Assembly (NCBI GenBank): GCA_037501455.1
Contig: CM074858.1
Location: forward strand, 17,410,501 to 17,474,500
Length of the DNA stretch: 64,000 bases
Reading direction: 5' to 3'
From: Lantana camara
Lineage: Eukaryota; Streptophyta; Magnoliopsida; Lamiales; Verbenaceae
The number at the start of each line of letters is the position of its first letter. Position 1 is the first letter of the stretch. The position numbers and the translations under genes are program-made. The notes under the pieces were generated by a model, which was given only the letters and a program-made list of their open reading frames with translations, searched no databases and was not told the DNA's origin. Positions 3,669 through 58,691 of the stretch are shown piece by piece.

Positions 3669-3675
3669 CCTTAGA

Positions 3676-24588: not shown

Positions 24589-24600
24589 AAGGGGGTGAGG
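24589..24600 (+). promoter_or_regulatory. Element B polypurine tract
   Basis: AAGGGGGTGAGG lies just before the 3' LTR start at 24602, the standard position for the plus-strand primer. Confidence 0.8.
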
Positions 24601-24601
24601 T

Positions 24602-32986: not shown

Positions 32987-33141
32987 GGTCGCGACCGCGA
33001 CCGAAAATAGAACAAAATAGGTCGCGCCCGCGACCCGTTTTTGGCCTTGTTTCGAGATTTGAAAATTTGAAGGAAAATTCGGGAAAAAAATAGGTCGCGC
33101 CCGCGACCATTTTGTGAACAAATTGGGTCGCGCCCGCGACC
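32987..33141 (+). other. Palindrome cluster in LTR C (four copies)
   Basis: GGTCGCGACCGCGACC at 32987-33002, then GGTCGCGCCCGCGACC three times at 33020-33035, 33093-33108 and 33126-33141. The 16-mers are dyads of GGTCGCG around a central pair, very GC-rich within an AT-rich LTR. They follow a TTTCCCCTGTTTTT and CTGCTGCTGCG stretch. Confidence 0.9.
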
Positions 33142-34214
33142 CCTGTTGTTTTTGCATGAAAATTCGAATTTCAAACTTTAGTTACATGGTTTTCATGACT
33201 CGTTTCCGGTATGTACACACCATTGATATGCCATATAATGTATTATATTATGTGTTATCATATGTGTTATGGGATTTCATGCTTAAGCTCATAGGGGAGG
33301 TTTATGTAAGATCTTCATACTTTGATTTATATATATGGATTACTTGATCCTTGCTACATTACTTGATAAATTGAATATATTTATAACCTTTATTGATTGT
33401 AAGTTCATGATTGACATTGGTTGAATATGCCATTCGTCTTAATTGGTTCATACGCATCGAGTCTCACGTACACTTGTCCTTGTTACACAGATCACGTTCC
33501 GGGAGCCGAGGAGCACGTTCTGTAGGGTGTTTCCTTTCTTCTCTTGATCAGTAAAGGTGAGGTTTAATTTCTAAATATATAGAACCCTTATAACCCTATG
33601 TGATCTTTCGGCCAAAATGTATCACTATATCTATAATTTTCCAAAAACCTTATGGATTTTCAGTTGAATTGCCGAATTGTACCGATTGATTGATCGATTG
33701 ATTGTTTTGGCGAGTATATTGTTCACTGTGGGCCCGAGGGTTAGTGTATGAGCCAATCGGGAAAGCACCGACTGATGGGTAACTCTGCAATCGCCTCACA
33801 TTGTTGGGATGACCCCTAAATCCACTAGGATATTAGTGGAGGAAAGAGTTCCGGGTATAGGGAATCATGAACCCTATGCTCAGACTGATTGGATCGTGGG
33901 GCCTTGCAATCCCACCATCACCCGGAGGAAGAAGGGGTTATTGAAATTGTTAATTGTGCACTGTAATTGATTGCTTGATCACCTAATCATTGAATAATTG
34001 AATTATTGTACACTGTCGGAGAAAGGTTGGAAATTTGCCCTCACTCGCCGGGCCACTGATTGATTGAACTGAATTGTACTGAATTGTAAATTGATTAGTT
34101 GTAATCTCAGGCGAGTTATATCTTATTCTTGAACTTATATTGCTTCATTTTATAAAATCTTACCCGAGATTATGGCTTGCATGGTAATTGCGCTTATAAT
34201 TATTAAAACCCTCA

Positions 34215-34276
34215 CTCAGTCTTTCCTAGACTGACACATCACATTTTCAGGTATTGCAGGTCGAGTGCTAGGTGGG
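34215..34276 (+). other. Hairpin, acceptor-like site and GCTAGG box in LTR C
   Basis: CTCAGTC (34215-34221) pairs with GACTGA (34229-34234). Then come TTTTCAG|GTATTGCAG|GT and GTGCTAGGTGGG. The same order is seen in LTRs A, B, D, E and G. The downstream partner box CCCGCCTAGC lies near 34525. Confidence 0.7.
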
Positions 34277-34739
34277 ATTGAGTCGAGTTTTGCTTCTTTT
34301 GGGTCTAGCATTTGTCACTCTCATGTTTCATCTACCTTATTGATAGATTTCTACTCTTATGAATTGGTTTTGGCATCTATGTATATTATGACTTATACTT
34401 GACTAGTTTGGGTTGTGAATTATGGAAATATTGTTCTAGAATCGAAAGGGGATAATGAAGTGAATGTATATTATTTTGCTTCCGCTTTATTGTTATGTAT
34501 GGTTGTATCCATTTGAGGGTTAGTCCCGCCTAGCTAGTGAGTAGTTTTTTTTATTGTCTCCCGTTCGCAGTAGGCTTGATTCATGTATGGATCGTCCATT
34601 CCATATGTGGATTGAACTATAGTGCTACAGTGAGCTTGTTGTTGCTCCACCTCCGACTACCGAAGAGCGCCTTGCGCGATTGGAGAAATGCATTCCCGTT
34701 ATTGAGGAGCAGCTTCATACCCTCCTGACTCTCGTCTGA

Positions 34740-36109
34740 GAGATCCACCAGCGCCACTAAGCGCCGCATCACAACCCCCCCGGGTTCAGGGAAGTCCTTG
34801 GTTTTTCATTGTTGCTTTACTTTATGTTGAGGACAACATATGTTTAAGTGTGGGGGGGTCCTGAGAGCTGACAGATATATTTTTGCGAATTTTTGGATGC
34901 TTTTAGGATAATTTTGAGGGTCATAGGGGCTGATAATTTTGAGCACATCCTGTTGTTGTTATAATCTTCTTTCGGATGAATCTTTGCATGTTTTAAATGC
35001 ATTTTTATGGCTGTGATTAGTAGCCTTTAGGGCTGACTGAAATTTTAAATATGTGTAGTACGGAATTGTTTACTATGGCGTTATATCCTTTCTAGAACAC
35101 TTCTTGCAGCTTCTTCGTTGTACTGGATTGATTTTGAAAAGGAAACTGAGTTTGAACCCTTGATTGTTTACAACTTGCATGGCATAGAGCACGGTTTGTT
35201 TGACACTTGACATTGTAGGAGTTGTATGAGAATGAGCATAAAAAGTTGAACTAAACATTGTGTGTATTAAGTTGGAGCCATGCTACGAGTGAATCTTGTC
35301 TAAAGTGATTAGTTGATTTAATATCTTTTAGATTTTTCAAATATGTTGAGAAACGGTAGGTTAGTGATTGAGCTTTGCTAAATTTGACTTGATAAGCATT
35401 TAGATGTGAGGGAGAGCTTGCGAGGGGCCAGCTAGAGAAAGGTTGGTCAGTAGAACTCGCGCGACTACTCCGCTGGCCTTGGAAAAATTCCAATTAATTT
35501 AGTGCCATGAGTAGGGTCGTATGTTGCTAATTCAGCCGCTCTCGAAATTATTTTTCCAACATTTAAAGGGATAAATAACTGGAGTTTGCCTTGCTTTGCG
35601 AAAAACTCAGAAAAGAAACGAGAAACAAAAAAAAAAAAAGAAAAAAGAAAAAAAGAGTTGCTGACAGAAAAAATGAGAAAAAAATGATGAGTAGAAAAAA
35701 AAAAAAAAAAGCTCAAAATAAAGGGAGTACTTGTTTTAAAAGCTCTCTAGGGATTTAGGTTGTTTATCTTGAAGGATGAAACTTAGCTCTTCACCATATC
35801 TTTGGTATTCTTTAACATACGCGCAAAATAAATTGATATTCGATTGACTAATTACTTTATACTTGTCTCCTTCGTTTGCATTGGATTAATGGAATCAAAC
35901 TAATCATACATGATTATAATTGAAACTTGAGCTCATATGTTCTTGCTTTAGAAAGTTGATTTCAAACTTAGCTTTGTGATTGTGTTCGTTGTAGATAGTT
36001 TTTGGTGACAGCGACTGTTTCCTAGTTTACACAACGGACTGCTGCAGTTGGGATGTAGAATGTGGTTATGGCCTTGATTCCATGTTATGCTTGGGGGAAA
36101 GCATCAACT
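34740..36109 (+). other. Athila 3' non-coding region
   Basis: From the end of the Athila ORF to the polypurine tract. It holds a second polypurine-like AAGTGTGGGGGGG (34846-34858) and an A/AG-rich tract (about 35600-35710). No gene is seen. Confidence 0.6.
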
Positions 36110-36122
36110 AAGTGTGGGGGGA
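36110..36122 (+). promoter_or_regulatory. Athila polypurine tract
   Basis: AAGTGTGGGGGGA stands two bases before the 3' LTR start TGATACG at 36125. Confidence 0.8.
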
Positions 36123-36124
36123 TT

Positions 36125-37582
36125 TGATACGTTGTATATTGGTTAACATATTAAGCTTTATATTGTTATATTTACCCCATGACTTGGTCTAAATTGTAGA
36201 GAATTAATTTATTTCATGCTTCTTGATAGGAACAACTTTGGCTTGCCAAAACTTTGGACATTTATGGTAATTTTCAGCAGCAGCCGTAAAGGAGGGGTAA
36301 GGAGACAAGATATATGGGCTTTAAGAAGAAAAACAAAGAGAAGTTTGGCCCACTAGTTAAGTCCAAGTCACGCAAAGAGTCCTTGAGAGTTTTATTAATT
36401 GTAGGCCCGTTAGTTCCCCTATTCCCTCGCCTTGCCCAAATTCACAAAAGTCCACTAAGTTCCAGCCCTATTCCTAAGAAGAAGTTACGTGCGTTACAGA
36501 AGACAAACACGTTTTTGGGCACGATGGTATCACTTGAAGAGAATTGATGGCAGCCATATTATTGAGGGAACATGGGAAGAAGTGGAAAGAAAAAGGTTCA
36601 ACCCCTTTACATTACAAAAGGTCGACGTTGTAGCTGAAAGAGGACATCTCTTCTCTCACTCAAAAAAGGCAGCAGCACCTCTTATTCATTCGGGAAGAGG
36701 CTTCGAGCATCGAACAGTTTTATTCTTTTCCTTTTCTTTTCGTTTAAACACTATGTTGATTTTCCAATTTCGTTATGAGTAGCTAATTTACTTTTAGTTG
36801 GGATTTTCCAAGTGTGTTTTAAACTTTGTGAGATAATTTCTTGTGGTTGATTAATTCAAAGTTATTCGTTTTATTTTCGATTTCATGATATTGGGTTTTG
36901 CCTTATTCTTTGATTTAAGAGCTCGAATCTTAGAGTTAGCAATTCGCATACAGCTAGTTGATTTATTTAGTGGTGTTAACTGGATAATTAACAAAGTGGC
37001 AATCAACACTAGGTTGTTAAGTTCGGCTGAATTTTGTGTTGTGGAATAATTCGGTCTAATTAGACGATGTAGGAGTCCTTACTAAGTCAATTAGGGTTAG
37101 TGTTTCTTTAGCTCGTAAAGCAACTAGTTAATTGAATTCTTGAAGGAGTTTCTGATAGGGTTATTAGCTAGTTAGGGAATAGCTTTAGGAGTTTCTTCAG
37201 ATTATTCTAAAACAACAAAGAAACGAGGGAGCCTAAGGTAATTGGTAACTATAGCAAGCCTAATGTGGAATTAATCACCCAATCCGTGATCATAGTCTGA
37301 TGCATGCGTAGGAAAATCCTGGCTACTTGTTATCTACTGAATTAATCCGAGTGTCAGCTGAATTTAGTTGTTATTCGTCTGTTTATTTAAGTTAAATTCA
37401 TTTTTAGTTAAAGTCTAAAATCACAAAAACTCCCCCCCCCTTTTAATTATTCGTTTTGTTTCCTTGCATAAGAAAGATTACAATTCACCCAATCCTCGTG
37501 GATCGACCCCATTTACCACTATCTGCAATTCATTTGTATTCGGTACTTGCGATTTTATTTTTGGTGGTCTCCACGCCCTTCA
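36125..37582 (+). repeat. Athila 3' LTR, 1458 bp
   Basis: Starts TGATACGTTG directly after the polypurine tract and ends in CA at 37582, where sequence of element F begins. The typical GTGGATCGACCCC stretch of Athila/Tat-type LTRs is near 37498. The 5' LTR is outside the window. The small ORFs at 36314-36782 overlap this LTR and are not convincing. Confidence 0.8.
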
Positions 37583-39443
37583 GTTATGAATAAGAAATTG
37601 GTTAGGAATGATCATGAACTAATATGAACACCTTCATATAAGTCTAAGAACATGTTCATAATGTTCTTGAATCAAATTAAGGTGCATGTGTGCTAGTGTG
37701 TGTGTATATATGTGATTAATTTTATGTTATAAAGTGTTTAATTCATAAGAATTTGAATAGTAAATGTTTTCAATAGTAACTTTGAATTTTTGGTCAACAT
37801 ATATTCTGAATATTTTGAAATTTAATTAAAAATAATTATAAAATAAGTTTTGGAATTTTTAAAGAAGGATTCTATCCGAATTTTCCGGAAATTGACAGTT
37901 TTGTAAAAGTTTTTTAAAATGTGACCTACATTGTCAAGTTAAACACTAATTTTCATTTCAGATACTTGTAATTAGGATCATAATGTGATTAATAAATATT
38001 TGGTTAGTTAAAGAATTCATAAAACCTAATTCATTAAAGAAATTCGCTTCAACGGGGTAAAATTAGGTTTTACCGAATATTCTTTAACATGTTATAGTTT
38101 GTGTTTACTTGATTAGAATAATATGTTACTTCTTTTAAGTATAAATTATGTGTTTTACGTGCTTATTTGATTAGAGTAAAGAACCTAGTCCTAAGTCTAT
38201 AGTAGTTAATACTTTCAGGCGCAATGGAGTCCACACGACTTTGTCTGACTACCGGTATAGGTGTGGGTTAAAATATTTTCAATTGGAATCATGCCTATAT
38301 ATATGCATCTATATATATAAAATGGTTTTCAAGCCTACCTATTATTATGATTCATTACCCTATATACATATTACCGTACCATCATATCCCTCTTAAGGGA
38401 AAAATACTTTCATACCGGAATTAACGTTTTACTAGGACGATATATATATTTAAGTCCACTTTATTAAAACATTGATTCCAAGTTATGCAAGCAAAATATT
38501 GTTCTTGATTCATGTTATGGGCCCCGGCGTATCCGTAGTGAGCAATTATCCGGAAGGTATCGGGCCGCGGGTATTGTTGGTGATGCGGACTGCCACCAAC
38601 TCTTGGTAGTGGTATAGCTTGAGGTTAGCTACTCGACGCCAAGAGATTAAGAGAATACTACTTCCCAATTCGCCTTCATGGTCTCTAAGGTTTGCTCCCC
38701 TATTGACACCAAGGAGTAGCGGAGGTATTATCATACTTGGTTTTATTAAAGTATCGGTGCATTGATCAGCCCGATACTGTTTAACCAACTATTCAAGGAG
38801 TTACGGATTGAAAGGCCTAGCTTGCGGGCATTAAAGTTCATGTTACAGACGGTTCATGTTTCTACAAATATTCCAAATTACCCCTATTCCAATTTTAACA
38901 CTTATCATGAACCGTTTCATATTTGCTATATCCTATTGCTATTATTTTGGATCAAGATCTTCTTGATCATATAAATATACATACATATACATATATCTAT
39001 GGACTATTATACCCTTTCAGTTAGTCACTTTGACTACTCCTCGCCTACTTTAAAATGCATGATTTCAGCGATCGATGAACGACATCTAGGGTTATCTTAA
39101 AGCATTACGGTGTCATACATAGTCGAACAGAACTGATTCTAAGGATACATAGCTTTGAGCCTGATCACCTTATAAATAAGCTATCTTATACTTCACCCTT
39201 GCATGCCATCCTGTTATACTCTTTTGCGAACTATTTTGATCAATAATGATAATCCTTGTTCTTATACGTGATCCTCCCCGTTTATTGGCAACCTTTTAAA
39301 TCCTTCTATCTTCCGCTGCATTTAAACTTGCGCTCTATTTAAAGTACCAGACCGTTCGCCGTAGTATTCCTCACATGTTGGGTCGAACCTCCACACGGGG
39401 AGTATTGCGGTGCGGGGGATGTATTCCTAGGGGAGGCGCTACA
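37583..39443 (+). repeat. Element F 5' LTR, 3' portion
   Basis: Begins at the Athila LTR end with GTTATGAATAAG, matching 41765 in the other LTR, and ends GGCGCTACA just before the primer-binding site. It contains a GGGCCC-type block near 38520. The terminal GCGGGGGATGTATTCC is the same kind of end as in the other LTRs of the clan. Confidence 0.8.
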
Positions 39444-42916: not shown

Positions 42917-44132
42917 ATGTCTTCGAAACGCTTGGCACCTGAGACTTTAGAAAAACTCGATGGGTCGAACTATGACATTTGGCATAAGAAAATCCAGTAC
43001 TACCTTCATTACCGCAAAGTTATGGACCCCTTATCCACTAGTAAGGTCGCACCTACTGAACCCAAGAAGGATGCCACTGAGCAGCAGATCAATGAGTAGA
43101 AGACTAGCTTAGCTGTGTACTAGGAATGGCTAAAAAAGGATCGTAGTGCACATTATGGTATGTTGAGTAACATGCACGATGACCTAATTGGAGAGTTTGA
43201 AGTTTATTCCACGGCTAAGGAGATGTGGGATCAACTTAAGATCAAATATGGTCAAACATCCGAGATAAGGTTACATACCTTGCATTTGAAATGGATGCAA
43301 TATACCATAGATTCTAGTCGAACCAAAAGTGAGTATTTGTGCACTATGAGTGCAATGGTTTGTGATCTTAACGCTGCAGGAACTGACATTCCTGAAAATA
43401 CTCAGGTTCTGAATGTGATTAGTACACTTCCAAATGAACCTGATCATTGGAAGAACTGAAAATTCCTTATGACTCATAGTGATCACATTAGATCATTTGC
43501 TAAAATCTCGAAGCACCTGGAGATGGAAGAGGAGCACATCAAATCACTTGGTCACTCTAAAGTTACGCTTGTCGCCGGAGGGGGAAAACCTAAAGGCAGC
43601 AAGTTCAAGCGAGAGAACAACTCTAAGAAAGGAAAACGTCCTTCTAAGACTAACAGACCAAAGGGTGGCGTGACCAAAGTGGGAAAAACCTAAACAAAAG
43701 AACATGGCACGTTTGAAGTGCTACAATTGTGGAAGGAATGGTCACTTTGCTCGGGATTGCCCCGAACCAAAGAAGGTACCTACTTCTCAATCTTCTCTTG
43801 AATTATATGTTTGTGCACATGCATTAGTTGCTAATCATTTTCCAAATTGGATTGTAGATTCGAGAGTAAGCAAACACATAGTGCGAGATCGAGCTGGTTT
43901 CCGAGAGTTTTTTCGTTACCCAGTGGGAACTCAAACAGTCGTTTTAGAAAATGGTAGCGAGAAAGACGTCCTCGGCATAGAGACATACCATCTGAAGCTT
44001 CGTGGAGGAAATACGTTGTTTTTTCATGATGCTCTCTATGTATCGGGCGTGCGATTTTCTTTAATTTCAGTAGTCTCTTTGTTGAGCCTTAGTTTTTCCT
44101 TTAATTTCAATTCTACTGGTTTAGAAATTTTG
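42917..44132 (+). pseudogene. gag: Copia gag, zinc knuckle and protease start
   Basis: The ATG at 42917 begins a copia-type Gag (LDGSNYDIWHKKIQYYL; then MWDQLKIKYGQTSEIRLHTL, LHLKWMQY and NVISTLPNEPDHW), broken by stops at about 43097 and 43457. A Lys-rich region is followed by the zinc knuckle CYNCGRNGHFARDC (43719-43760). The protease start reads WIVDSRVSKHIV, where the usual DSG/DSA active site has become DSR. The sequence ends within the stretch before integrase (FSFNFNSTGLEIL) at the edge of LTR D. Confidence 0.9.
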
Positions 44133-44376
44133 GGGTATAATTGAGGAAAATGGAAGTTAAGTGAAGAGTTTATATATGGGTTCCAAAGTGTAGATTCTTG
44201 ATGATCAATGAGGGATATGAGTGTTTATGTTGGATTTTATTGTATATTAATCATGTATACATGTTACTTCATGTTTTAGATGCATTTGGTGATTGAAATT
44301 ATGGTTGTGTTGATGTTATGATTTTGGTTCGAGCATTTTCCCCTGTTTCTGCTCTGTTCTGCATTACCTGGATAAC

Positions 44377-44598
44377 GGGAACGACCCTTCCCGTCCCAGT
44401 TCATTCTGGGAAAGGCTGTTCCCAACCCCTGACAGCTGGCACGCGAGAATGGGAACAGCCCTTCCCAGTTTAGCCTGTGGCCAGAACGACCGTTTTCATC
44501 CTCAAAATGTTCAAAATCTTTACAGATGCGCGGGATCGTTTCGGGGAGCCGGGAACAGCCCTTCCCATTTCTAGTTCAAACCCGGAACGGCCGTTCCC
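44377..44598 (+). other. Palindrome cluster in LTR D (six copies)
   Basis: GGGAACGACCCTTCCC (44377), GGGAAAGGCTGTTCCC (44408), GGGAACAGCCCTTCCC (44451), AGAACGACCGTTTT (about 44483), GGGAACAGCCCTTCCC (44551) and CGGAACGGCCGTTCCC (44583). All are variants of one dyad, GGGAAC-nn-GTTCCC. They follow TTTTCCCCTGTTTCTGC, as in LTRs C and E. Confidence 0.88.
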
Positions 44599-45541
44599 AT
44601 GCTCCAGGGGATTTTCTGGATTTTCTACATAAAATTAACCTTTACAAATCGGTTTTTAAGGCCATAAATGATCGATACGTGTTATTATATGCTCATTTTA
44701 AGATTGAATATGATCATATAATTCCATAATTGTCAATGCACGTCATATTATTCATGAAAACGCCGTTCGTCCTAATTAGTTTATACAAGTCGTGTGTCAC
44801 GTACACTTGTCTTTGTTGCACAGACCAGCACCCCAATGACGAGGAGCGGGCTTCTTAGGCCGTGTCTTTGCTTATATTTTGTCTGTACATGTGAGGTTCA
44901 ATTGCTAGTTACCTAGAACCCGTATAACCCTTACGTGAACTTTCGGCCAAAATGTATATATATATCTATTATCTTTCCAAAAACCTTCAAATGATTTAAA
45001 AGCAAGCCGTGTACCGTGTTACCGTGTTATATTGACCGTGTTTTGGCAAGTTACCGTGTATTGTTCACTGTGGGCCCGAGAGTTTGTGTTTGAGCCAACC
45101 GGGAAAGCATGGGCTGACGGGTAACTCTTACACTTCTCTCATACCATGGGGATGAACCCTGAATCCACCAGGAGGTTTGGTGGAGGAAGGAGTCCCGTGC
45201 GTGGGAGTCATGTTCCCGACGTACACCGTGTTACCGTGGATGGTTCGGGCCTTGCAAACCCACCATCATTGGAGGAAGAAGGAGTCACTGAAACTGCTAC
45301 TTGTGCACTGTAACTACTTGCATGACTATTTAATTAATTGAAAGTATCGTGATTGTACACTGTCGAAGTAAAGGTTGGAGAATTGCCCTCACTCGCCGGG
45401 CTACTGATTGATTGATTGAAAATGATTAAAGTGTTTAACTTGATAGTTGTAATCTCGGGCGAGTTCTACGTTATTCTTGAACTTATATCCGAGGTTATGG
45501 CTTGCATGTTATCTGCGCTTATATATAAACAATGCCCCTCA

Positions 45542-45801
45542 CTCAGTCTTTTGTAGACTGACACCCCCACTTTTCAGATTTTGCAGGTTGTGTGCTAGGC
45601 GGGATTTGTGTCGAGCCAAGTCTGTCGTTTGGGGTCTAGCACGTGTCCATTTCCATTTTGATGCATATATATTATTATCTACGGTTTTATAACATGTTAT
45701 GTATTTTGAAGATGATAATGTATTGATATATGGACATATTATGCTTCCGCTTTATTTTGTTATGCATTATGGTAATTGGTTTGGGGTTAGTCCCGCCTAG
45801 C
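45542..45801 (+). other. Hairpin and long-range complementary boxes in LTR D
   Basis: CTCAGTC (45542-45548) and AGACTGA (45555-45561), then TTTTCAGATTTTGCAG|GT, then GCTAGGCGGGA (45594-45604). 186 nt further on is its exact reverse complement TCCCGCCTAGC (45791-45801). It is the clearest copy of the module shared by the LTR clan. Confidence 0.75.
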
Positions 45802-45854
45802 TAGTTAGTCTTTTGTTTTCTTGTATCCCGTTCGCTATAGCTTAGTTCATATAT

Positions 45855-48800
45855 TGTAACATCCCGCATCTCTGAAGCACGACCCGATGACGTTTATGGG
45901 TAAGTCCTTCTACTTGAATGTTTAATTTATTAATTATGTGACTTATATGATTAAATGAGAAATCAATTCGGTATGCTAATTATTCGTATTAATTAAGAGT
46001 AATTGTTAATTTAAATTATTTCGTACGTAAACCTCAACCGTTTAATTTAATTTAAGTTTATTTCATGAATAATTTCTAAAAATCGATTTTTTAATACCTT
46101 ACGTTATTTAACTTGTTTAATTTGTACGAAAGGTTTTCTAAACTTAAATTGGATTAAGAACTAATTGGTAAATTCTTTCTCGTTTTAATTCGTAAAATTA
46201 TTTCGAAATTGTAAGTTTATTTTCTTGTACTCGGGTTTTATTTTACGATTTTTCAACACGTCGGCTTCGGGTTAAGTATACGAGATCGTACGTGAACCGG
46301 TCATACCCCTTTTTCCTCTCTCTCTCTTCTCTCTCTCTCTCCTCTCCCACTCTCTCTCCCGCGGGCACTATACGCGGCTTCGGTTACGAGCCCTTAACTC
46401 GGTTGTTTCTCGATGGAATTCAACAAATGAATAGTCCATTTCGAAGATCTCGGCAAGACCTACGCAAGAGTACCAATTTCGTGGCCTAACGACGACCGAC
46501 AGCGGAGATATCTCCATTTTTCAGGCGCGGCTGGAGAGGTGGCGGAGCCGCCACTTCGCCGGCGGTTTCCGACGGTATTTCTTCGACACGCGCCTCAGAC
46601 CCCGAAAGAGGACCTCCCGACGTTCCGGTTGACGTCGGCGGCGTGTCCATCGGGGCGATGGCGGCGGTGCGAGTTACTGTAGCAATGGGTTTTGCTGCCG
46701 TTTTTCGATGGGGCTTGATGTTTTCCAAGGTTTTCGACCATCCCGAGTCCATTTCTGGCATCGATTTCATTGGATTCTAGCCGTAGGTGGTGGTTCTGGC
46801 GTGGCGGCGGTGGCGCGACTTTGGGTGGCAATTTGGAGCTTTTCTGACGAGTATTCGGCAATGGGATCTTCAGAGAAGTTGCTCAACCGACGAGGCCGAA
46901 CTTTTCATGCAGGTGGCGGTCCAAGAATCGGCCATTGGAGGCTGATTGCGGCAGCACAGCGGTGGTGCAACGGCGGGGGTAGCTCCTAGGATTTTTCCCG
47001 GCGAATAGCTTAGGGGTTTCGAAAAGCTGGTCACGGGTAATCCAATACCTCTTACGGATTCGATTTTCGTTCACCGGTTTGAAAGTAATTTGATTTTGAA
47101 GATTTGAGGGTTTTCGTGTTCTTAGATTTGAAATTCGAGAAGATTGGTTTTGATTTTCCAGAAATTGATTGAGGAATTGGAAGGAGCACGAGGAGTACTT
47201 ACACGGGTGATTTTTCAGGATTTTCCCGCACGTTCCGGCGGTGGCCGAACGGCCGCCGGCCATTGTTCCAGCCGTTCTGGCGGCCTTCGGACAGATCGTT
47301 CTTCTCATCGCGGTGAGTCTAATGCCGCTTTCCGTTCGTCAATCGGACACTCGGTTTATTTTCTATGAATTTATTTGTATATTTGGAAATTATTTGATTT
47401 AATTGTTTAAATGAATTTAATTACGATTAGCTTGATTTGTTGATTTATATGAACTCCGATGTATACGAAATCATACATTTAATGAAATGTGATATGTATT
47501 GATGCTTTGGATTGTAAATTGAACCCCGTTATGCCAAATTTGTATTATTTGTTAATTGTTTAAAATGGAATTTGTTCTTGCATGTTCGATAAATTAATGA
47601 ATATGCATTACATGGTATTTGAAAATATGTAATGAGTTATGAATGTATGAATTCATGATTGTTGTTTATATTAGTTTCGTTTCATGCCATTAGATTTAAT
47701 ATAGCCCTTGTAGAAGGGATGTTTGTGTAATTTTAGAATATGTAAATTGTATGACTTGGATTAGTTAACCATATTAATTGTGAAACAGTTATGCTAATTT
47801 TGATTAAGCAAAAGATGAACTATTATGTCTCGGACACTAAACTTGAAATTTAGTAATTAATGTTAAATTGCTTAAATTGAATACGAAATCGTTTATAAGA
47901 TAGTTGAATAACAATCGGTTATACATTATATGAATTATATGAACCTTGTAAGGTTGAATGATTTAAGGGGGACTTGATATATGACCTTGTGGGTTTTAGT
48001 GAAATTCGTAACATGTTAGTATGTGAATTTTGTGTGAAATGTGATATATGAGTTAAATGAAGCTTGTATGGTTCAACTAGGAACTTTTGCACCTAAGAAA
48101 TGATTTAATTGCACAAGTATGAATTGGATATGCGATAAGTAAATTAATATGAAACAATTTAAATTGCTTTGTCTTTTTATTTCTATTGTTTGCGTTAATT
48201 GTTCACATGAACGTGTCCTAATATGTAATATGATTTCTCTGAACCATATAATGAGTTGTTTTGTATGTAATTGATATAAATTTACACCCTGCTTATGTGG
48301 TTGCATTTCGTAAGTGTTTGAGCTTGTGTCGTGCGTCTCTGTGTGGTTGTCTAAGTTTGAGTCTGAGCTTTGTAGTCTATTTTGTGTGTTCAGTCGGTAC
48401 AGGTGCACCCGGGGTGGTGACAAGTGGGTCGTGCAGGTTCCGGGGTGGACCATTTGCTGTGTCTTCAGCTTTGTCTGGTACCAGGTGAGGTTAGGATATA
48501 GTTATACCCTATTGCAACATGCTCGTTTTGAATGCATGCGACTTATAAGCCTTTATGTATATGTAAAATATGTGCGAGATATGTATTTTGTTGGTTTTGT
48601 CGTAAGTTTGAAAGTATGAACGCTATGTATGAGCCTATGTATGCTTAAGCTCCGTTTTGATATGTTTTTGAGGTAAGACTATGTGTGGTATGTACGTGAT
48701 ATGCTAAGTACGATATGCATGAGATATGTCTGTCTGTCTGTCTGTAGAGGGCTTAAGTTTTGCTATATGTTATGTGTGATATGTCCTGCTTAAGGAGGGC

Positions 48801-49925
48801 CCAAATTCCATGTAAGGGATGTACCGGAACCCACCTGAGATTAGGTTGGGGGATGGAGTCCGAGGGTTGGAGAAGCATTGAGCACTCCCCTCATCTGTTT
48901 ATGGATGGCTAGGGTCGCGCAACCCTTCCATCACACCTACCTGGTATCTATTGTTTTGTTTTGTTTATTCCGTGTTTAGACTCGTACCCGCCGAGTCTGT
49001 CCGTTTGTCGTAAGTTCGTGAAACGGGGGTAGATTTCTAAATTAAGATAAAATTTGGTATACTTTTAAACTAATAAAATATACTCCGATATGTGTGCTAA
49101 GTCTGCATGAGTTTGAACGTATGTCTTGAGTTTTGTATAAGCTAAGTTTTGTTCGTTATGTTCTGATAAGTCACCCCTTATATATATTATCACGAGAAAA
49201 ATATTTTGGCGTGCAAAAACTAGTCCCGGGTCCACGAACATTTAATTTAGAACGTGATGTGCTCTGTATATATGTATAGTGTGCGTGTGTTAAACCCTCG
49301 CTCAGTCTTTGGACTGACCCCTCCTCCTTTATGTTTTTAGTGTGCAGGTTTAGCTTTGGGTTCGCGTTGGAGTTCGTGCTAGGCCGTGATGTGTCGTGTC
49401 TGTTGAGTTTGTGACTGTTTGTTTAAGTATGTTAAGTATTTTGTTCTGAATTATGATTTGTAAATTTCGTATAAGATATGTTATGTACAGGTTTGTATGT
49501 ATGATTTGAACGTATCAATTCGGGACAGGTTAGGACAGGTGCTTGGATTAGATGAACCCGTTTTGTTGCATGATTTTTTGGGTCAGGTTTCTAGGGCCAG
49601 TTGAACCCGTTTCGTTGTATGATTGTTCGGGACAGGATAGGACAGGTTCGATCATTTAGTTGAACCCATGTAATTGATTTTGATGTATGTTTGATGCTGT
49701 CACCCTTATGTATGAAAAGTCTTTGAAAAGTTGGCATTTCGTATTGCTTCCGCTGTCATGTTTTGCATTTTTTCTTCTGTACAGGGTTAGATACCACCAA
49801 GCTAGTGTGTGTGTTTTTGTTTGTCACCCGTTCGTTGTGACTTGGTGTGTGTGCGGACTTTTCATTTCGTACACGTGTCGGGTCATAGTGCGGGGGATGT
49901 GGCACCTCACGTGCAGGGTGTTACA
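45855..49925 (+). mobile_element. Solo LTR G, 4071 bp
   Basis: Starts TGTAACATCCCGC and ends GGGTGTTACA, flanked by TATAT (45850-45854) and TGTAT (49926-49930), a 5 bp duplication with one change. There is no internal region. The GC-rich part at about 46300-47300 has ORFs on both strands with low-complexity products and no domain; I read it as leader sequence of the LTR, not a gene. It has CTCAGTC/GACTGA (49301-49317), TGTGCAGGT (about 49340) and GTGCTAGGCC (49376), a TGTC microsatellite (about 48728-48744), and is related to LTR A. Confidence 0.88.
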
Positions 49926-50001
49926 TGTATGGATTGTCCGTTTCATATGTGGATTAGGCTATAGTGCGGGGGATGTGGCACCTTGCGCTTCAGGTGTCAC
50001 A

Positions 50002-51843
50002 AAGGATAATATAATTTCTTTAAATGAAGGAGACAGTGGGATTATTCCCATAATCCCAGATAGTGGAAACTTGTTTGCTAATGAACATTAATCAGAGTAT
50101 GAGGTAGGTTCAAATGTTCAAGTTCCCACACCACCAAGGGATAGTGGGAGTGATTCGATACCCCGAATAGACAAGTAATCAAGGCCTTGCAACACGAAGA
50201 AGTGAACGTGGAAGAATTCCTCGACGATACTTTCAGTTTGAAGAGGAAATATTTCTATGCACCCGTTTAGAAATTGAGGAGCTTTCTTCCTTTGTGGAGG
50301 TTATAAATTCACCGAATAGTGCTGAGTGGATGGATGCTATGAGAGATAAGATGGAATCAATGGCTAAGAATAAGGTTTAGGATTTAGTTGACCATCCACA
50401 TAAGCGTAGATCAATTGGAAACAAATGGGTTTTCACGATAAAACATAAAGCGGATGGTTCAATTGATAAATTCAAAGCTCGACTAGTGGCGAAAGGTTTT
50501 TGCCCAAATTGAGGGTATAGACTATGAAGAGACTTTTTCTCCTGTAGTGAAACTTGCCTCTATTCGCCTACTCCTAGCCCTAGTCACCCATTTGGATTTA
50601 GAGTTGTTCCAAATGGACGTAAAGACTGCTTTTCTCAATGGTAAACTTGAGGAAGAGATTTAAATGGATCAACCTATTGATATTGTATCAAAAGGTCAAG
50701 AAGGAAAAGTTTGTCGCCTAAAGAAATCCATATAAGGTTTAAAGAAATCTTCCAGATCATGGTACATGAAATTCCATGAAGCTATTTCTGAGTTTGGCTT
50801 GAACATGGTAGATGAAGATCATTGTGTATATGTCAAGAAAACTATAGAAGGGATTATGTTCCTTTCTTTGTATGTTGATGACAACCTTTTAGTTGGGAAC
50901 AATAAGCAGATGATCAATGCTACTAAGAAGTGGTTGTCCTCTGTTTTTTAGATGAAGGACATAGGTGAGGCAAGGTATGTCCTTGGCATTGAAATAATGA
51001 GAAATTGTTCTAAGAAACTTCTTAGCTTGTCTCAAGAAACTTATATTAAGAAAATCTTGTAACGCTTTCGAATGCATTATTCCAAACCCGTTGATACTCC
51101 TATTGAGAAGAGTTTGACCTTAAGGCTTGATCAATGCCCTAAACCAGATAAAGAAAAAGAGCAAATGAACAATGTTCCTTATGCTAGTGCCATAGGGAGC
51201 TTGATGTATGCCATGTTATGTACAAGGCCTGACATCTATTTTGCGGTTAGTTTGGTGAGTCGTTATCAAAGTAACCCAGTACCTGTTCATTGGCAAGCGA
51301 TCAAGAGAATCATGTGATACCTTCGCGGTACCAATGACTTAGTCCTTTGCTATTAGGGTGGGGACTTGAGACTGAAGGGTTATTCGGATGCTAATTGGGG
51401 AGGTAATGTAGATGAATCTAAGTCCACCTCCGGATACTTTTTCATCCTTGGTGCAGGAACTATATCATGGTGCAGTAAGAAGCAAGACTGCATAGCCTTA
51501 TTACCATGGAAGTAGAGTATGATGCATGTTATCTTGCCACGCAGAAGGCGGTCTGGCTGAAAGAGTTTCCAAAGGACCTCAACCTCACCTCGGGGGTTGA
51601 TGAACCTAAAGAAATAGGATGTAACAATAGGGCCATCATCCAATTTGGAAAGGATCAAAAATTCCATCGAAAGACCAAGCATACTAAGAGACATTATCAT
51701 TTTGTATGAGACGCCATACAGAAGAAGGAAGTTGTCTTCAAGTATATATCCACTAATAAAATGATTGTCTATTCATTAACTAAATCTATTCCTAGGGATG
51801 CTTTTAAAACTTATATGTTAAGCCTAGCATTACGAAGGGTTTA
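50002..51843 (+). pseudogene. pol: Copia reverse transcriptase and RNase H
   Basis: Copia-type [52 protein letters not shown], and the catalytic LYVDDNLLVG (50872-50901) still intact. RNase H part: KGYSDANWGGNVDESKSTSG and ISWCSKKQ. At least nine stops and several frameshifts interrupt it. The piece starts in the spacer before RT (50002); the integrase core that should precede it is missing. Confidence 0.92.
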
Positions 51844-52873
51844 GTGTGTTGGATCAATTTTATTATGTACTGGACATTTCTTTTGTATTGAGCATTATTG
51901 AAATAAAACCGTTCTTTCTTTATCAATGCTTTTGTGTATACAATTACTTTATTAGGCACATAAAACTATCACGAGGCTTTTGATTCATTCTGTCACACGA
52001 AGAATCGCCCTAATGCATAAGTTTCGATTAGGATGAGACTGAACCATGTTAACACTAGGTGTGTGTAACATTGGATTATTATCTTACTTGCGTTGTAGAG
52101 GATAATAATGATCAACTTAGTAGTCGCCTTAGCAAGTCTAAGATGAGAATCCAGAAGAGTCGAATGTGAAATTTTATCTTTTCATATTAAAGCCTTAAAG
52201 CTGAATTTAGAACGGTAGATGAACACTGAGTGTGTTTGATCGAGAGGTTCAAGTTAGATTTTTTAAGTAAAAATTTAGACTATGAATTCGCATGGCATAG
52301 ATACGTAACATGCTTACCATAGTGGGAGTTATGCCATGACACACATATCATATTGTGTTTGCTCTTTGACGAACGTTACAAAGAGTGACAATCGATTCCC
52401 TTCCTTTATCACTGTGTGACTTTGCAGACTTTTGTGTCCATATGACCGATGCTCTTTGACCTAGAACTATGACTTGAAGTCGAAGTTTGATAATGCTACT
52501 TTATTGGGTTTTTCCAAGGACTAAGATACATATAGTCCAGCAGAGCACAGTAGGAAAGCAGTCTAGCTAAGATGTATTGTCATGGTGTTTCGGGAATAAT
52601 CATTTGTCTTCACCATGTTAGCCCAGGTGACTCTTTACGTTATAGTCATATAATATCGATATAGCATAAAGTGACATTATATGCTATTGGTGATGACTAA
52701 ATTGATTTGGGCCATCGTAGATGTGAAAATGTTATGTTAGTTGGATGATGACTTAATATAACATTATTTGTTACTTTTTGGTCGCACACCCCAGTTCTTG
52801 AATGAAACGTAAGAGAGGTATTTTCATAAAATTATTTTGTATAATTAAGTGGCTTATGTAGCCGAGTGGGAGC
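51844..52873 (+). other. Copia 3' region with polypurine tract
   Basis: About 1 kb between the end of RNase H and the 3' LTR, without a gene. AGTGGGAGC (52865-52873) just before the LTR is the likely polypurine tract. Confidence 0.6.
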
Positions 52874-53152
52874 TGTAGTTAAGAAGTGGGGTCCGGCCAC
52901 ATCTCTAAAGATTAGGGAGCAGTACTCGTAACTGCTGTGGCACTTCCCTATAGAATAGGAATAGGTTTACGCAACCCTATTGTATTCTATATATAAGACT
53001 TATCTATGAGATAATTCTAACACAGAACAGAATACAGAAAACTCTCCTAGAAAATTCTCTACGTAGTCCATCATCGAAGACTAGAGATTTAGGGCGTGGA
53101 AATGATGGTGACTCTTGTAGCCACCTAAAGAGAAGATTATAGTAAGATTACA
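52874..53152 (+). repeat. Copia 3' LTR, 279 bp
   Basis: Starts TGTAGTTAAG after the polypurine tract and ends ATTACA. A TATA box CTATATATAAGAC near 52988 and a short leader lie in the expected order. The right edge coincides with the start of MuDR-like coding sequence. Confidence 0.65.
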
Positions 53153-53947
53153 GTGGGCTTAAGGCAGTAATCAACTCGCTTTCGCAAAAGTTTAGTCCGT
53201 TTATGTGTACCTACAGCATAATTATCAAATTCTTCATCAGAGTTCTTAGCTTCACAACTATAATCAGATGCATAATTAGACATTTCACTAGAGCCAGAAT
53301 TATCTTCCAAATTAACATTGTCAACATTCTCAACATCAAATTTAGGTATAAATAAACTGTCATCGGAGTTGTAAACATCCTCATCAGATAAATCAGGGTC
53401 ATCTCTTCTTTTACTACTGCTACCATCATTGCATCTTCTACCCTTACCAAACATCTCTTTTGCTTTATTCTTTACTTTTACCACCAATATTGTCAGCAAC
53501 CAAACCCTTACCCTTCCCAGCAGTTTCATTCATTGAACTAACAATATTGTTGACATTTAGATTACCAGTCATCCCATAAATCTGAACCCTAGCATCCATA
53601 TTCTCAACCCTCACAGCAGAATCCTTAGCATTTACATTTACAATGGCATGCTTTAAATTAGAAACAACAAACATATCAATCACTGCACAATCAAAGTTTC
53701 TTTCAAACATTCTCAAAATATCTCCATCAGTCTCAACAGATATCTTACCCCTACAATGTAATGTAGACACATGTATCCTCAACAAATCGTCATCACCCAA
53801 ATAAAATAAACCCTTAATATCAGCACAAAAGTCAAAATAACTGTACTTATCTGGTTCTACATCATACAAGCTTGCTATTTGGTCATCATAATGAATAACT
53901 AACGTGTATGTCTTGTCTCCCATTGTACCTGAAAGCGAGACAAACAC
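53153..53947 (-). pseudogene. MuDR-like (MULE) transposase, N-terminal part
   Basis: Minus-strand coding sequence with the N-terminal region typical of plant MuDR-type transposases. The first exon seen reads TMGDKTYTLVIHYDDQ and GDILRMFERNFDCAVIDMFV, followed by an acidic linker (DDPDLSDEDVYNSDDSLFIP) and HKRTKLLRKRVDYCLKP, where it is cut by the copia LTR. A TTTCAG before GTACAATGGGAG suggests an intron in front of this exon. A frameshift near 53475 splits it. The catalytic DDE domain and zinc finger are absent. Confidence 0.7.
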
Positions 53948-54692
53948 AAGAACATGGTAAAGGGTTTAATCATTTAGAAATTGTACTCTTTCATGAAAAA
54001 TGTTTAGATTAACACAAAAATATCTTGATTTCGACGTTAAATCTAGTTATTGTTAAGGGACACAAATCAAGCAATAATATAAAGAAAAAACAAGACGTAT
54101 CAAGACATAGAGTGTTTCCTCACTGATGCTTAAAATTTCAAACTAAAATGTTCAAATAAACACAAATATCAGTTCTCTTCGACGTCAAAACAAGAAATTT
54201 TTCGAAGGAAAAAAAATCTTACAAAAACCCTTATGAAAACGATGCGTGTTGAGCTCGAAACTAACCTTAGTGTCTTCCCACCATGAATCCAAGCAACGTA
54301 CACCCTATCTCATAGATTACAATAGCCATCCTTCGAAGAAATTACAAATTTCCAGAAGCAATCAACGAAAATGGCGATTTGGTCCTAGGGTTTTCTTGTG
54401 CGGGAAGGAACACTTAGGAATTTTGGGATCTGATGTTATTTTGTCTTGCTTTGGAGATAATACAGATAAATGGAAGGGTATCTATGTCATTTAATATTTT
54501 AATTACAAATAGTTTTATTTTGGATTAAAAATAAGGAAAACCGTCAGGGACATTTAGGAATTTTCTTATTTTCGGTCTGGTACCTCAAGCCAAACACGTT
54601 CTACAGGCACTAGTATGTAATTTTTCAAATAAGAGGTTGTGCGTTGTAATTTCGCCTATTGTGAGGGTACCCAGATGTAATTCACCCTAATA
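53948..54692 (-). other. Upstream part of the MULE remnant
   Basis: Non-coding sequence between the MULE transposase exon and a possible element end at about 54692, where the minus strand reads TTAGGGTGAATTACATCTGG. Without the other end, a terminal inverted repeat cannot be confirmed. Confidence 0.35.
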
Positions 54693-54792
54693 TGTATCAT
54701 GTATAGTTAAAAAATGTAACTAATATTATTTCTTTTGCAATATTTAGACATCCAATCAATCTCTTTGTTTTCTTTTTCTCTCTCCAATACTT

Positions 54793-55620
54793 TTTTTTAG
54801 TCCAAAACGAAGCAACCCAATAGAGGAAGAGTAGCCTCAAGCTAAGACTCATTCAACTCCATTGGTGGACAATCCTAAATCCAGTAACCATCTTGAATCT
54901 TGTGGCCTATCCTCACTAATTTAGCCATCATGATGTTTCTTTCTCTCAAGATGTGCTCAATCTGAACTTCCTCGAGCCTGAGGAGAAAACTTCGATAATC
55001 AAATATTATATTTCTCATTGAGTGCTCTTCATAATTCTTCTTTCTTATCCGTTTTACCTACTTCTTCGAATCAATTTCCACATTGATCTTCAGAATGCAC
55101 CTCACCCGAGTTAGCTTTAATCACTCACTTAAGCCTAATAACCTGGTCACTTTTTTTGTAACTCTACCAAGATTCATAACGTATCTTAGCACCCATCTTC
55201 CACTATCATCTCGAATGACGCCCCTAATTGAAGCATTGTTGGTGTGCCTATGAACGCTTCCATCTAAATCTAGTACCACCCATTCTTTCTCGAGTTTACT
55301 TCAAGGCAACTCAAGATATGTTTTCTTTTGCCTGTATTTTTGTCCTCACTAATTAGTACCAAAGACTCAGGTAACTTTTTTGTATGGTGAAGAGTGACGT
55401 TTCTAGGCTTCAACAATCCGTGCTTTCCGAAGATTCCAGAGCGTTGAGATCAAGACAATCCACCCAGGATATTCTGGTAACATGTTGCTCTAAATTTTAA
55501 TTTTAAAGCTCTCTTTTAGCCAGTCCCAATAATTGAGGATGCCAAAGTCGATTTTTTATAGTTCAGAATGGAAACTCCAAAGCTCTCCGTAGTACAGGAT
55601 GTTCAAAATATTTATCCCTT
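54793..55620 (-). pseudogene. LINE 3' end with plant-type RNase H domain, decayed
   Basis: Read on the minus strand, 55210-55300 gives EWVVLDLDGSVHRHTN and RGVIRDDSGRWVLRYVMNLG, the start of the RNase H domain at the end of many plant LINE ORF2 proteins. Further on (about 54840-54990), VQIEHILRERN and KLVRIGHKIQDGYWI match the end of that domain. Upstream (55400-55480) VLISTLWNLRKARIV resembles the zinc-finger region before it. Frameshifts and stops are many. An A-run near 54793-54800 on the minus strand may be the LINE tail. Confidence 0.65.
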
Positions 55621-55745
55621 TATAATATAATAATAATTAGTAAAAATAATGTATGTTGCATATTAAATATATGATTTATCTAAAATTTTTAATTTTTAAA
55701 ATATTAAAATAAAATTATTTAAAAATATCAAATATTTAAAATTTA
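55621..55745. other. AT-rich stretch, nothing recognised
   Basis: Almost pure A/T, target site of LTR E. No gene. Confidence 0.6.
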
Positions 55746-58691
55746 TGTGACACCCCGACTCTTCGGCCGTACAGGTATGACGTAATTGCTCATTTAAATT
55801 ATTTATTCATGTGATTATATGTTTACTTTCTATTCTTTTTTAATTATTTGAAGCTTTATTTGAACGTTTATGCTTCTTTTGTTGGTATTAGCTCCGTTTT
55901 TTATCGTTTTCAATTCCGATTTTGTGCTTATTTGCCACACATGAGATATACGTGTTATGAACTTGTTAATATAACTGTTTTATGATTTTGAGTTTGTTTG
56001 TTGAGCTTTTGGAGTGTTTGTTTCGTTTGGAACCTAAAGGAGGCTAAAACTTTTTTAGCGCACCTTGGGTTCCGGGTGGTGTAACTCGAGCTCGGAAATT
56101 TGAATTTGAATTTCGCCACTTCCATTGACTTCATTTCGATGATTCGGAGTCAATAGACTAAGACTTGAAATTTTCTAACCTTGTTTGATACTCCGAAATT
56201 TGTTCGAAAACTCACCTCGTGCCTATATGACTACCTTTCACCAAATTGCACATAAGTCCCTCAAATCGTGACATATTACCCTCAAACTTGGTCCCACCAT
56301 CCACCAACTCAATATAATATCATCCTTTTCTTCCTTCATCTCGGTTCACACAAGGAAAAAGGGAGAAATTTGCAGCAAACTTGGAGATATACAAGCCATC
56401 CCGTCAGTATTCACCAAGGGAGAAATTTGAGCTCATTTCTCCATTTTCCTCCATCATCTTCAAGGAGTAAGTGTATATTTGTTATTACCATGCTTATATG
56501 ATCATTTTAATCCATAAAAATTAGTTTTTGAGCTAAGTTTGATTCATTTATGAGCATGCATTGAATAGTAAGGGTTTAACTCATTCTTGATGATCTCTTG
56601 CTTTTCTTTGGATGATTTCTTAAAGTGATGATGTATATGTGATCTCTTATACCCCTCTTTGATTATATGGCTTCATTTTTGTTGGAAGATGAATGTATTG
56701 CATTTTGCCATTGATGAACTCTAAGTTCTTGCATGAGTTAGCTTGATATATGTTGCTTCTTTGTACTCTTTTTCTTACTCGATGTTTTGGGTAAAATTGT
56801 GGCTTGCTTTTGCTGCATATTTGATGTATTTTCATGGTTTGGTGTTGTTGCTTTGAAGTGCTGCTGCGTGCCCTGCCCTTCCCCTGTTTTTCTCCCATGT
56901 TCGAACAAAGCTGCTGCTATTTTTTTTTCCATGAACGAAGGCCAACACGACCGTGTCTGTTTTGAATGTGAAATGGACGAGGCCATATTAGAACTTTGAC
57001 TTTGGTAGGATTATTTTTATAAAATCGGACATGGTCGTATCCATTTTGTACTAAAAGCCAACACGGCCGTGTCCGAGGTTCGAGATTTGGCCTCTGAATT
57101 TATTTTAATCGGACACGGCCATGTCCATTTTGAACTAAAACCTGACACGGCCGTGTCATGTGAGGGCAGCGGCTATGGTTGTTCGTTTTGTGATTTCGAT
57201 GCCTTTACTCGTGCTTTCGTGCTTCTTTTATGATTGTATGTAATGATAACTTGTTATATTATGTGTTATACGCATTGTATTGAGTTTATGATTTCATATG
57301 ATATGAGTTTTCCGAGTATGACTTAAATTAGTACGTCTATGCATTCCATTTGTGTTCATCACATTCATAAGCATCGTCGGGTGTCGATTTGGTTCATATT
57401 TGAGTCTAAGTCTTGGGTCTTGCCATTTTGTGTTTCAGAGCCTCTTCCGGACGTGTAAGAACCCGAGGTTTAGGTGGTTGGTTGCCCATTCTGATTCTAC
57501 TTCTGCTCTCTTTTGTTATAAGGTGAGCTTTAGGAACTTTGTATTAGTTATTGACTTACGGCCTATTATGTGTTGTTTTACACCCCGTGTGTGAATATAT
57601 ATATATCTTATATACATTAAATACGCATGTTTAAGCTATGATTATGGCCTTATGGAAATGTTTGAATCTTATGAAACGGTATAAGTATGAGCATATGTAA
57701 GCTTAAGCTTTTGAATTTTTTTACGTTATGTTTGAGCGAGTTGTGCCCTGAAAGATGGGATTATGATCTGATATGGTATGTTGGGCCCTGGGAATTATGG
57801 GAAATGAATGCCCAGGACGGCAAGGGCCATCGGGTTTGGCCTGTGCGTGGTTCCCTTTGAGATATTCACGTGGGACTCTTGGACGTTGGGAAGGCGTGGT
57901 ATCTTGAGCCCTCGGTTGTTAACCGAGGAAGGAATATCGTGGGTTAGCTATCCCGTATGTTTTTGTATTACATGTGGAGAGGGTTTGATTCCCGAAATAC
58001 CAAGGATGTGGGGATGGATTTGTATTTACGAATTCGATTTTTATGTTATGTTTTGAGGAGTTAGTAGAAATCCGTTCTCACCGGGCGTTTGTTTCTGTTG
58101 TGTATTGTTGGTTATGGATCAAGATAGGATTTCTTTTATGTGTATTACTTTATTCGTTTGCAAATGATTTGGTATGAAAAACCCTTGCCTCGATTCATGA
58201 CTATCCTTTGGATATATGCTCTGTTATATTTATACATGTGTGGGTGTACGTTTCGGCCCTCACTCAGTCGAGTTATAGACTGACCCTTTCCTTTAGCCTT
58301 ACAGGTTTGCTCGAGCTAGGCGGGGAAGTACGTCGTGTCGAGTCGTACTTACCTATTTAGGTCGAGTCTGCATCTACTTTTGCATCTTTTGAATACTCTA
58401 TCTTCTAGTACTTATATATGAATCCGAATACTTGTATTTCTGGACCTTAGGGTCAATGTATATATATGTTAATGTATGCTTTCGTTGAGCTCGTTTTGGA
58501 TCCTGTTTGTTGCTTTCGCTTATTTGTTTACTGCTTTATGCGCTCTGGTTGTGTTTTAGCCCCGCTTAGCCTAGTGTGTAAGTGTAGGTCCTTGTTCGCT
58601 TAGACTTGGGCTCATGTATGGAGATCCATTTCGTATGTGGATTCGGGTTTAGGTGCGGGGGATGTGGTGGCCCACCGTTCCGAGCGCTACA
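55746..58691 (+). mobile_element. Solo LTR E, 2946 bp
   Basis: Starts TGTGACACCCCGAC and ends GAGCGCTACA, flanked by a perfect 5 bp duplication ATTTA (55741-55745 and 58692-58696). It holds a donor-like AGGA|GTAAGTG at 56467, five palindromes (56944-57157), CTCAGTC/AGACTGA (58263-58283), a TTACAG|GT acceptor-like site (58304), GCTAGGCGGG (58315-58324) and CCCGCTTAGC (58561-58570). No internal region and no gene. Confidence 0.92.
56944..57157 (+). other. Palindrome cluster in LTR E (five copies)
   Basis: Variants of GACACGGCCGTGTC: 56944-56957 (core GA instead of GG), 57028-57041 (decayed), 57060-57073, 57112-57125 and a perfect copy at 57144-57157. They follow CTTCCCCTGTTTTTCTC and CTGCTGCT, as in LTRs C and D. 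Confidence 0.88.

Follow-up and report, generated by a model that had tools for sequence, protein, structure and literature searches.

The question raised by the stretch of Lantana camara DNA analysed here (64,000 nucleotides of contig CM074858.1, assembly GCA_037501455.1; referred to below as the window) is why the long terminal repeats (LTRs) of several retrotransposon families within it carry clusters of short palindromes, or dyads, in which the centre is usually similar while the arms on either side differ from one family to the next. An original prediction, made from the letters of the window, had placed such clusters in five LTR families, denoted A to E, and all five were recovered by sequence scans where they had been placed. 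We assign slightly better than an even chance to the reading, drawn from sequence, that these clusters are distal operator arrays in the U3 (unique 3') region of the LTR, at which a dimeric DNA-binding protein would recognise a CGG half-site core together with family-specific flanks, and that the arrays have been replaced on a shared scaffold.

Dyad arrays in five LTR families

The unit of the arrays may be described as a 16-bp inverted repeat, N5-CG-NN-CG-N'5, usually with CGG and/or CCG in its centre and often arranged in couplets 31-35 bp apart. The arrays of the window and the anchor that precedes three of them are as follows.

32987..33141, + strand: class C, four perfect dyads GGTCG-CGMCCG-CGACC found by scan, starting at 32987, 33020, 33093 and 33126 and grouped as two couplets (33 bp apart)
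44377..44598, + strand: class D, six dyads resembling GGGAA-CGnCCG-TTCCC, starting at 44377, 44408, 44451, 44482, 44551 and 44583
56943..57158, + strand: class E, five recognisable dyads GGACA/TGACA-CGGCCG-TGTCC/TGTCA, at 56943, 57027, 57059, 57111 and 57143
5752..5869, - strand: A cluster with mixed arms, GGGTACGGTCGTACCT, CAGATCCGC-AGCC-GCGGATCTG (22 nt) and ACCCACGGCCGTGGAT, at 5752, 5803 and 5854
9209..9259, + strand: B couplet, decayed, 35 bp apart
19061..19111, + strand: B couplet of another tandem copy, its dyads 35 bp apart
25648..25697, + strand: B couplet, 34 bp apart, in the copy that holds the best preserved dyad, GGTAACGCCCATTACC
32949..32957, + strand: anchor CCCCTGTTT of the class C cassette
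44340..44348, + strand: anchor CCCCTGTTT of the class D cassette
56881..56889, + strand: anchor CCCCTGTTT of the class E cassette

One or two mismatches are present in five of the six class D sites, whose couplets are spaced 31-32 bp apart, and the class E array consists of two couplets 32 bp apart with an extra, very weak dyad at 56969; couplets of 31-35 bp thus recur in families B, C, D and E. The B dyads are decayed forms of GGTAA-CGCCCG-TTACC, found at 9209/9244, 11704, 14168, 16632, 19061/19096 and 25648/25682, several of them being tandem copies. The arms of C, D and E agree with those originally described, those of A are mixed, and the TAA..TTA ascribed to B is the inner part of GGTAA..TTACC. 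The interval first proposed for the whole set (32987..57157) holds the dyads of C, D and E, but those of A and B lie outside it.

The similar stretch said to precede the C, D and E clusters is the anchor CCCCTGTTT. Distances of the dyads from the LTR start, predicted at about 0.9-1.4 kb, were measured as 0.92-1.08 kb in C, 1.20-1.41 kb in E, about 1.05 kb in B and 1.21-1.33 kb in A; the start of LTR D was not found in the window. A CGnCCG centre, described as usual, is found in C and in B, for example, but is not universal: CGGGCG or CGGGGG stands in arrays with TGACA arms, CGGTCG and CGCAGCCGCG occur in the A cluster, and CGnCCC is the centre of many D sites. The two bases within the CGNNCG centre are mostly GC, CC, AC, GT or GG, the exceptions being the one-sided cores of the D and TGACA arrays.

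The dyads exceed chance in the window and in the genome

A template scan of the window returned 44 sites, whereas 40 block-wise dinucleotide shuffles average 23.3 and reach 39 at most. We then extended the counts to the plant genome from which the window comes (1.27 Gb, 378 contigs), in which the anchor pattern CCCCTGTTT-N10-CG has 594 matches against 144 for its reverse. The locus sample comprised 100 of these 594 matches, from contigs C1 and C2, picked without regard to their arms (8 from the search output, 60 as 4-kb pieces and 32 as 401-bp pieces), and 91 of the 100 differ within the 100 bases after the anchor. Many anchors lie outside the LTRs of this clan and were retained in the core-selected arm-pairing and fixed-offset tests described below.

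De-duplication left 64 loci 3 kb or more in length, of which 61 come from the genome and three are the window clusters; in these pooled loci the 300 bp after the anchor contain 103 GC-rich dyads, compared with 7.4 in block-wise base shuffles. Elsewhere in the same loci the 100-bp bin that ranks next has 10 dyads where shuffles have 2.0, and slight excesses are present in a few more bins. Exact 16-mers of single arm classes are abundant: the class C sequence GGTCGCGNCCGCGACC has 9,555 genome matches (2 for the reversed pattern), the class D sequence GGGAACGNCCGTTCCC has 52,658 (0 reversed) and the CCAAA-class sequence CCAAACGNCCGTTTGG has 2,115 (0 reversed), where CGGCCG-centred sites are self-complementary and counted on both strands, so that distinct sites are fewer, exact matches of one array can fall on both strands, and the counts are lower bounds for the repeats. 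The one swapped combination that was counted, a C left arm joined to a D right arm (GGTCGCGNCCGTTCCC), has no match in the genome. Perfect-arm classes in the 100 loci include GGTCG (12), GGGAA (7), CCAAA (5), CTCCC (4), TGACA (3), GTCCC (3) and GTACC (2).

Outside this genome, one 16-mer matched 64 stretches of viral contigs with one match each, which we take to be chance, and a two-site pattern had no match. A search for relatives through the integrase-chromodomain region gave 11 pattern-matching stretches, none of which was confirmed.

Arms retain their symmetry while they differ between families

Among all CGNNCG cores near the anchor in the 100 loci, 52 of 111 unique 16-mers pair at four or more of their five arm positions, whereas 2,000 permutations average 11.6 and never exceed 26; a recount that includes the window clusters gives 53 of 116 against 11.7 (maximum 22). 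A core at offset 26-28 from the anchor is present in 42 of the 100 loci, which yield 31 distinct 16-mers, 23 of them with at least four of five arm pairs. For core-selected sites at this homologous offset, 79.4% of the cells are paired (49.0% in shuffles), and the arm covariation score is 0.719 against 0.254, with none of 500 shuffles as high. When the partner is slid by one to three columns, a control that keeps the relatedness of the rows, the score falls to 0.042-0.286. In one locus (L113) neighbouring dyads have different arms that are nevertheless symmetric, CTCCC..GGGAG and GTCCC..GGGAC. These results support the view that symmetry is retained while the arms differ between families, as expected for dimer recognition or for a hairpin.

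An origin of the dyads by chance was considered and is rejected by the window scan, the genome counts, the arm swap, the arm permutation, the covariation and the clustering after the anchor.

Different arms occur on homologous LTRs

We compared the flanks of the cassettes (970 bp on the upstream side and about 1.2 kb on the downstream side, with an alignment of at least 300 bp required) between arm classes, which for this comparison and for the decay counts below were assigned by hand from the arms seen. Of the 78 pairings between arm classes, 39 have flanks that align, with 59-86% identity. For example, a GGTCG-type locus (L116) and a GGGAA-type locus (L070) are 85.6% identical in 843 bp of downstream flank and 70.4% identical in 879 bp of upstream flank, and class C and the CCAAA class are 77.3% identical over 929 bp downstream. 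Since flanks are homologous across arm classes, the arms appear to have been swapped in all sites of an LTR, and whole arrays seem to have received new arms on one shared LTR scaffold. The route could have been selection, exchange of cassettes, or regrowth of the array from a new seed.

Spacing and decay of the dyads

Spacing was determined for 121 successive dyad pairs in 91 loci, the sites being chosen for at least four of five arm pairs. It is 31-35 bp in 59 pairs, 41-44 bp in 13 and 72-76 bp in 15, and the commonest value is 33 in class C, 32 in class D, 32 in the CCAAA class and 34 in the TGACA class. Three, four and seven turns of B-DNA correspond to about 31.5, 42 and 73.5 bp, so that the main spacings lie near whole helical turns. 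The arms of neighbouring dyads differ by no more than one base in 106 of the 121 pairs.

Within a class, changed arm pairs comprise 59 broken, 33 of the G.T type and 5 compensated in class C; 37, 6 and 2, respectively, in class D; 65, 11 and 2 in the CCAAA class; and 19, 2 and 2 in the TGACA class. The changes being mostly uncompensated, no repair of symmetry after insertion is seen, and purifying selection on individual insertions is not supported. Arms mutating without a match on the other side, one of the outcomes named at the outset as contrary to the original prediction, prevail among the changes within a class. The matched changes lie between families, where symmetry is kept, as seen in the arm swap and the covariation score.

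Elements that carry the arrays

The following further features of the LTRs were identified in the window.

32063..34629, + strand: solo LTR of class C (GGTCG arms), with target duplication GTGAG at 32058-32062 and 34630-34634, by eye
55746..58691, + strand: solo LTR of class E, with 5-bp target duplication ATTTA, ends by eye
34211..34234, + strand: conserved hairpin CTCACTCAGTC..GACTGA of LTR C, probably in the R (repeat) region, with a TATA-like stretch just upstream, by eye
45538..45561, + strand: conserved hairpin of LTR D
58259..58283, + strand: conserved hairpin of LTR E
4193..4213, - strand: conserved hairpin of LTR A

The hairpin CTCACTCAGTC-N2-12-GACTGAC is common to the LTR clan, whose LTRs are about 2.6-3.4 kb long, and has 25,784 matches in the genome against 0 for the reversed control. 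The dyads of the window precede this hairpin by about 0.9-1.5 kb, a TATA-like stretch is seen by eye 20-45 nt ahead of it, and the hairpin probably marks the 5' end of the transcript. We infer that transcription starts there, which would put the arrays in distal U3, some 1-1.5 kb upstream of the probable start.

The coding region of class C was sampled in two copies, each interrupted by insertions and covered in part, from which four stretches of 3 kb were read. Stretches L167 and L170 match the profiles Retrotrans_gag, Ty3_capsid, RVT_1, RT_RNaseH and SH3_Tf2-1 (the C-terminal part of the integrase), and a match to Chromo scores 25.9 bits against a cut-off of 25.1; the integrase core was recognised by eye only, and the chromodomain sits behind the integrase. 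The presence of gag, reverse transcriptase, RNase H, integrase and chromodomain identifies the class C elements, at the level of sequence, as Ty3/gypsy chromoviruses, whose general features suggest the Tekay/Del type. The tRNA primer site TGGTATCAGAGC follows the class C 5' LTR at position 172 of stretch L169, and in L170 a purine-rich run directly ahead of TGTGACGCCCC forms the purine tract before the 3' LTR. The gag frame starts about 0.2 kb past the primer site in L169, and in L170 only tens of bases separate the stop of the chromodomain frame from the purine tract, which leaves no room for a further gene at either end in the copies sampled; in these stretches no additional VANC-like gene or open reading frame was found at either end of the coding region. 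A 3.6-kb internal stretch adjoining an LTR of the AGACA type (L134) contains no long frame.

Further observations concern the surroundings of these LTRs. A second, different array, of short dyads GAGAGACGGGG..CTCTC, has three of them at 24469-24544 in the window and several near 3400-3530 of L134; its place directly before a purine tract and an LTR start probably puts it in the element's 3' untranslated region. A tandem amplification spans 8075-20215, its unit measuring about 2,464 bp; by eye, the unit joins part of LTR B to a reverse-transcriptase fragment, and a copy related to it lies near 24513-26801. At 1796-7083 on the - strand, LTR A and a further LTR enclose, as judged by eye, only a primer site and a gag-like stretch; the element may be non-autonomous, with gag alone. 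LTR D contains, nested at 45855-49925, a 4.07-kb LTR of another family (end by eye), which holds a GC-rich dyad of its own, GTGGCGG-AG-CCGCCAC, at 46539. LTR D itself interrupts, as judged by eye, a broken Ty1/copia-like element at 42917-51900 that encodes a zinc knuckle and a Pol beta-barrel domain.

Possible function of the arrays

If the arrays are operators, their sites would be read by a homodimeric protein, which the host most probably supplies and which would touch the inner CGG half-site and the family-specific outer bases. Dimers about three helical turns apart would face the same side of the helix and, by acting jointly, would switch the LTR promoter or its silencing. Differences between families would have arisen as whole arrays on the shared LTR scaffold were replaced by symmetric sites with new arms. 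Binding by dimers is favoured by symmetry combined with free arms, by identical arms within an array, by centres that are free in orientation, by helical spacing and by concentration in U3; the sharing of arms by neighbours also favours operators, since independent hairpins would not need it.

Several observations weigh against an operator function. At least two sites with at least four of five arm pairs are present in only 34 of the 100 anchor loci, partly because many anchors are not in LTRs of this clan. Flank homology does not extend beyond the 39 pairs of classes, is only about 60% in some of them with the weaker ones near the limit of the comparison, and links the CCACA class, represented by a single locus, to no other arm class. 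Asymmetric cores are frequent in the D and TGACA arrays, spacings of 46-50, 68 and 106-107 bp fit whole turns poorly or not at all, and the sharing of arms within an array could be explained by tandem amplification. Changes within a class are mostly one-sided. Two of the five covariation measures are not above shuffles (there are 5 pairs with a change on both sides, and 5.0 in shuffles; further pair types number 14, where shuffles average 12.2 and 78 of 500 do as well), and as the rows are related, the shuffles overstate significance and few independent arm changes are counted. Finally, predicted RNA folds of the arrays are better than those of most or all shuffles, with z-scores of -5.38 for C, -4.86 for E and -2.97 for D; shuffles folding as well as the real array numbered 0 of 200, 0 of 200 and 2 of 200, respectively, and site-to-site pairing is predicted in C.

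The folds would suit a function in RNA, in which the dyads of the 3' U3 form hairpins or site-to-site pairs in genomic RNA for packaging, dimerisation or small-RNA production. Identical arms would allow any site to pair with any other, and the available text on maize Sireviruses describes their palindrome regions as small-RNA hot spots with strong predicted structure (PMC10760457, PMC5311732). A hairpin, however, has no need of a conserved CG..CG core, and decay in class C shows no excess of C>T over G>A (41 vs 38) and so no sign of G.U tolerance, in a test that is weak because copies drift largely neutrally. The couplet spacing near whole turns and the equal decay of the two types lean towards DNA, and we regard a role in RNA as unlikely. 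It is also conceivable, though in our view more improbable, that the arrays have no function: palindromes would have arisen through template switching or quasi-palindrome correction and spread by tandem duplication, each family having been seeded by a different palindrome. Arms shared by neighbours and uncompensated decay within classes are in keeping with such a process, and the cassette could have hitch-hiked, given that flank identity is unequal on its two sides, as in mosaic LTRs. This does not account for the similar core, position and couplet spacing across different arm classes, for the neighbours in L113 that are symmetric with differing arms, or for the CGG-CCG signature found also in unrelated Sireviruses.

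We give very little credence to self-recognition of the VANC kind, in which a protein of each family would bind the arms of that family and counter silencing. Family-specific arms in non-coding DNA and their concerted change within an element do resemble the targets of VANDAL elements, and a chromovirus integrase, chromodomain or Gag could in principle hold the specificity. Against this, the ends of the class C coding region (L169, L170) have no additional gene, part of the clan is perhaps non-autonomous, as in family A of the window (LTR, primer binding site, gag, LTR; by eye), and the available text on VANC motifs does not describe them as palindromic (PMC5735166).

Returning to operators, a tentative extension, which we consider possible though doubtful, is that the arms are a family identity code read by fast-diversifying dimeric proteins, either host regulators or Gag/integrase-chromodomain proteins, with a constant CGG core and variable flanks by which each family is addressed separately. 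The CGG-CCG logic in Sireviruses and in chromoviruses might then derive from one shared family of host readers, and the parallel suggests a possible common reader in two superfamilies. Should the arrays be operators, each arm class would have near-identical sites numbering from thousands to tens of thousands in one genome, and these would amount to a readable code for which protein controls which family, and how plants or elements distinguish retrotransposon families would become a direct question of binding.

Comparison with known systems

Literature on palindromes in Tekay, chromovirus or other LTRs was searched, most subscription journals being outside its scope, and no description of these arrays was recognised; six motif strings had no match in the literature text searched. 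Similar CG-rich palindromes occur in cotton repeats, and the LTR of Tnt1, a Ty1/copia element of tobacco, is much shorter. The BII boxes of Tnt1 are promoter boxes that bind defence-induced DNA-binding factors, and the available text describes no arm code with a common core for them (PMC3316501).

VANDAL elements and their VANC anti-silencing proteins, to which the original prediction drew a parallel, share with the present arrays the family-specific short motifs that are repeated in non-coding DNA and diverge in concert, according to the parts of the reports available (PMC5735166, PMC10398659). VANC21 sites, as described there, follow a nine-base motif whose copies all point the same way, and the protein that recognises them is encoded by the element itself; the main text of that paper has no word beginning with palindrom (PMC5735166). 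In the VANC system, protein binding is accompanied by loss of DNA methylation. Here the motifs are dyads and no such gene was found in the class C stretches, so a close parallel is not supported.

A closer match is the palindromic repeated motif (RM) of Sireviruses. In the available text, the LTRs of these Ty1/copia elements contain family-specific RM, which in 12 of the 13 elements bear a CGG-CCG signature and which cluster, many copies per element, towards the upstream end of the LTR and ahead of the TATA box; RM are described as Sirevirus-specific and absent from the classic elements of that study (PMC2829016). Such RM clusters border CpG islands. For maize Sireviruses, a variable LTR palindrome region to which many small RNAs map is described in the text available (PMC10760457, PMC5311732), in a superfamily other than that of the class C arrays. 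The arrays described here are likewise repeated palindromes with a CGG-CCG signature upstream of a TATA-like stretch. They differ in that 4-6 bases separate CGG and CCG in RM (counted from Table 3 of PMC2829016), whereas here the two abut (CGNNCG) within 5-nt arms, and in that class C belongs to Ty3, with reverse transcriptase and RNase H before the integrase, a Ty3 capsid match and a chromodomain. The frequent couplets of 31-35 bp and the wholesale differences of arms on homologous LTRs are further differences. The logic of the CGG-CCG palindrome is thus known, while the Ty3 chromovirus host, the abutting core, the recurring couplet and the turnover of arms on homologous LTRs are new.

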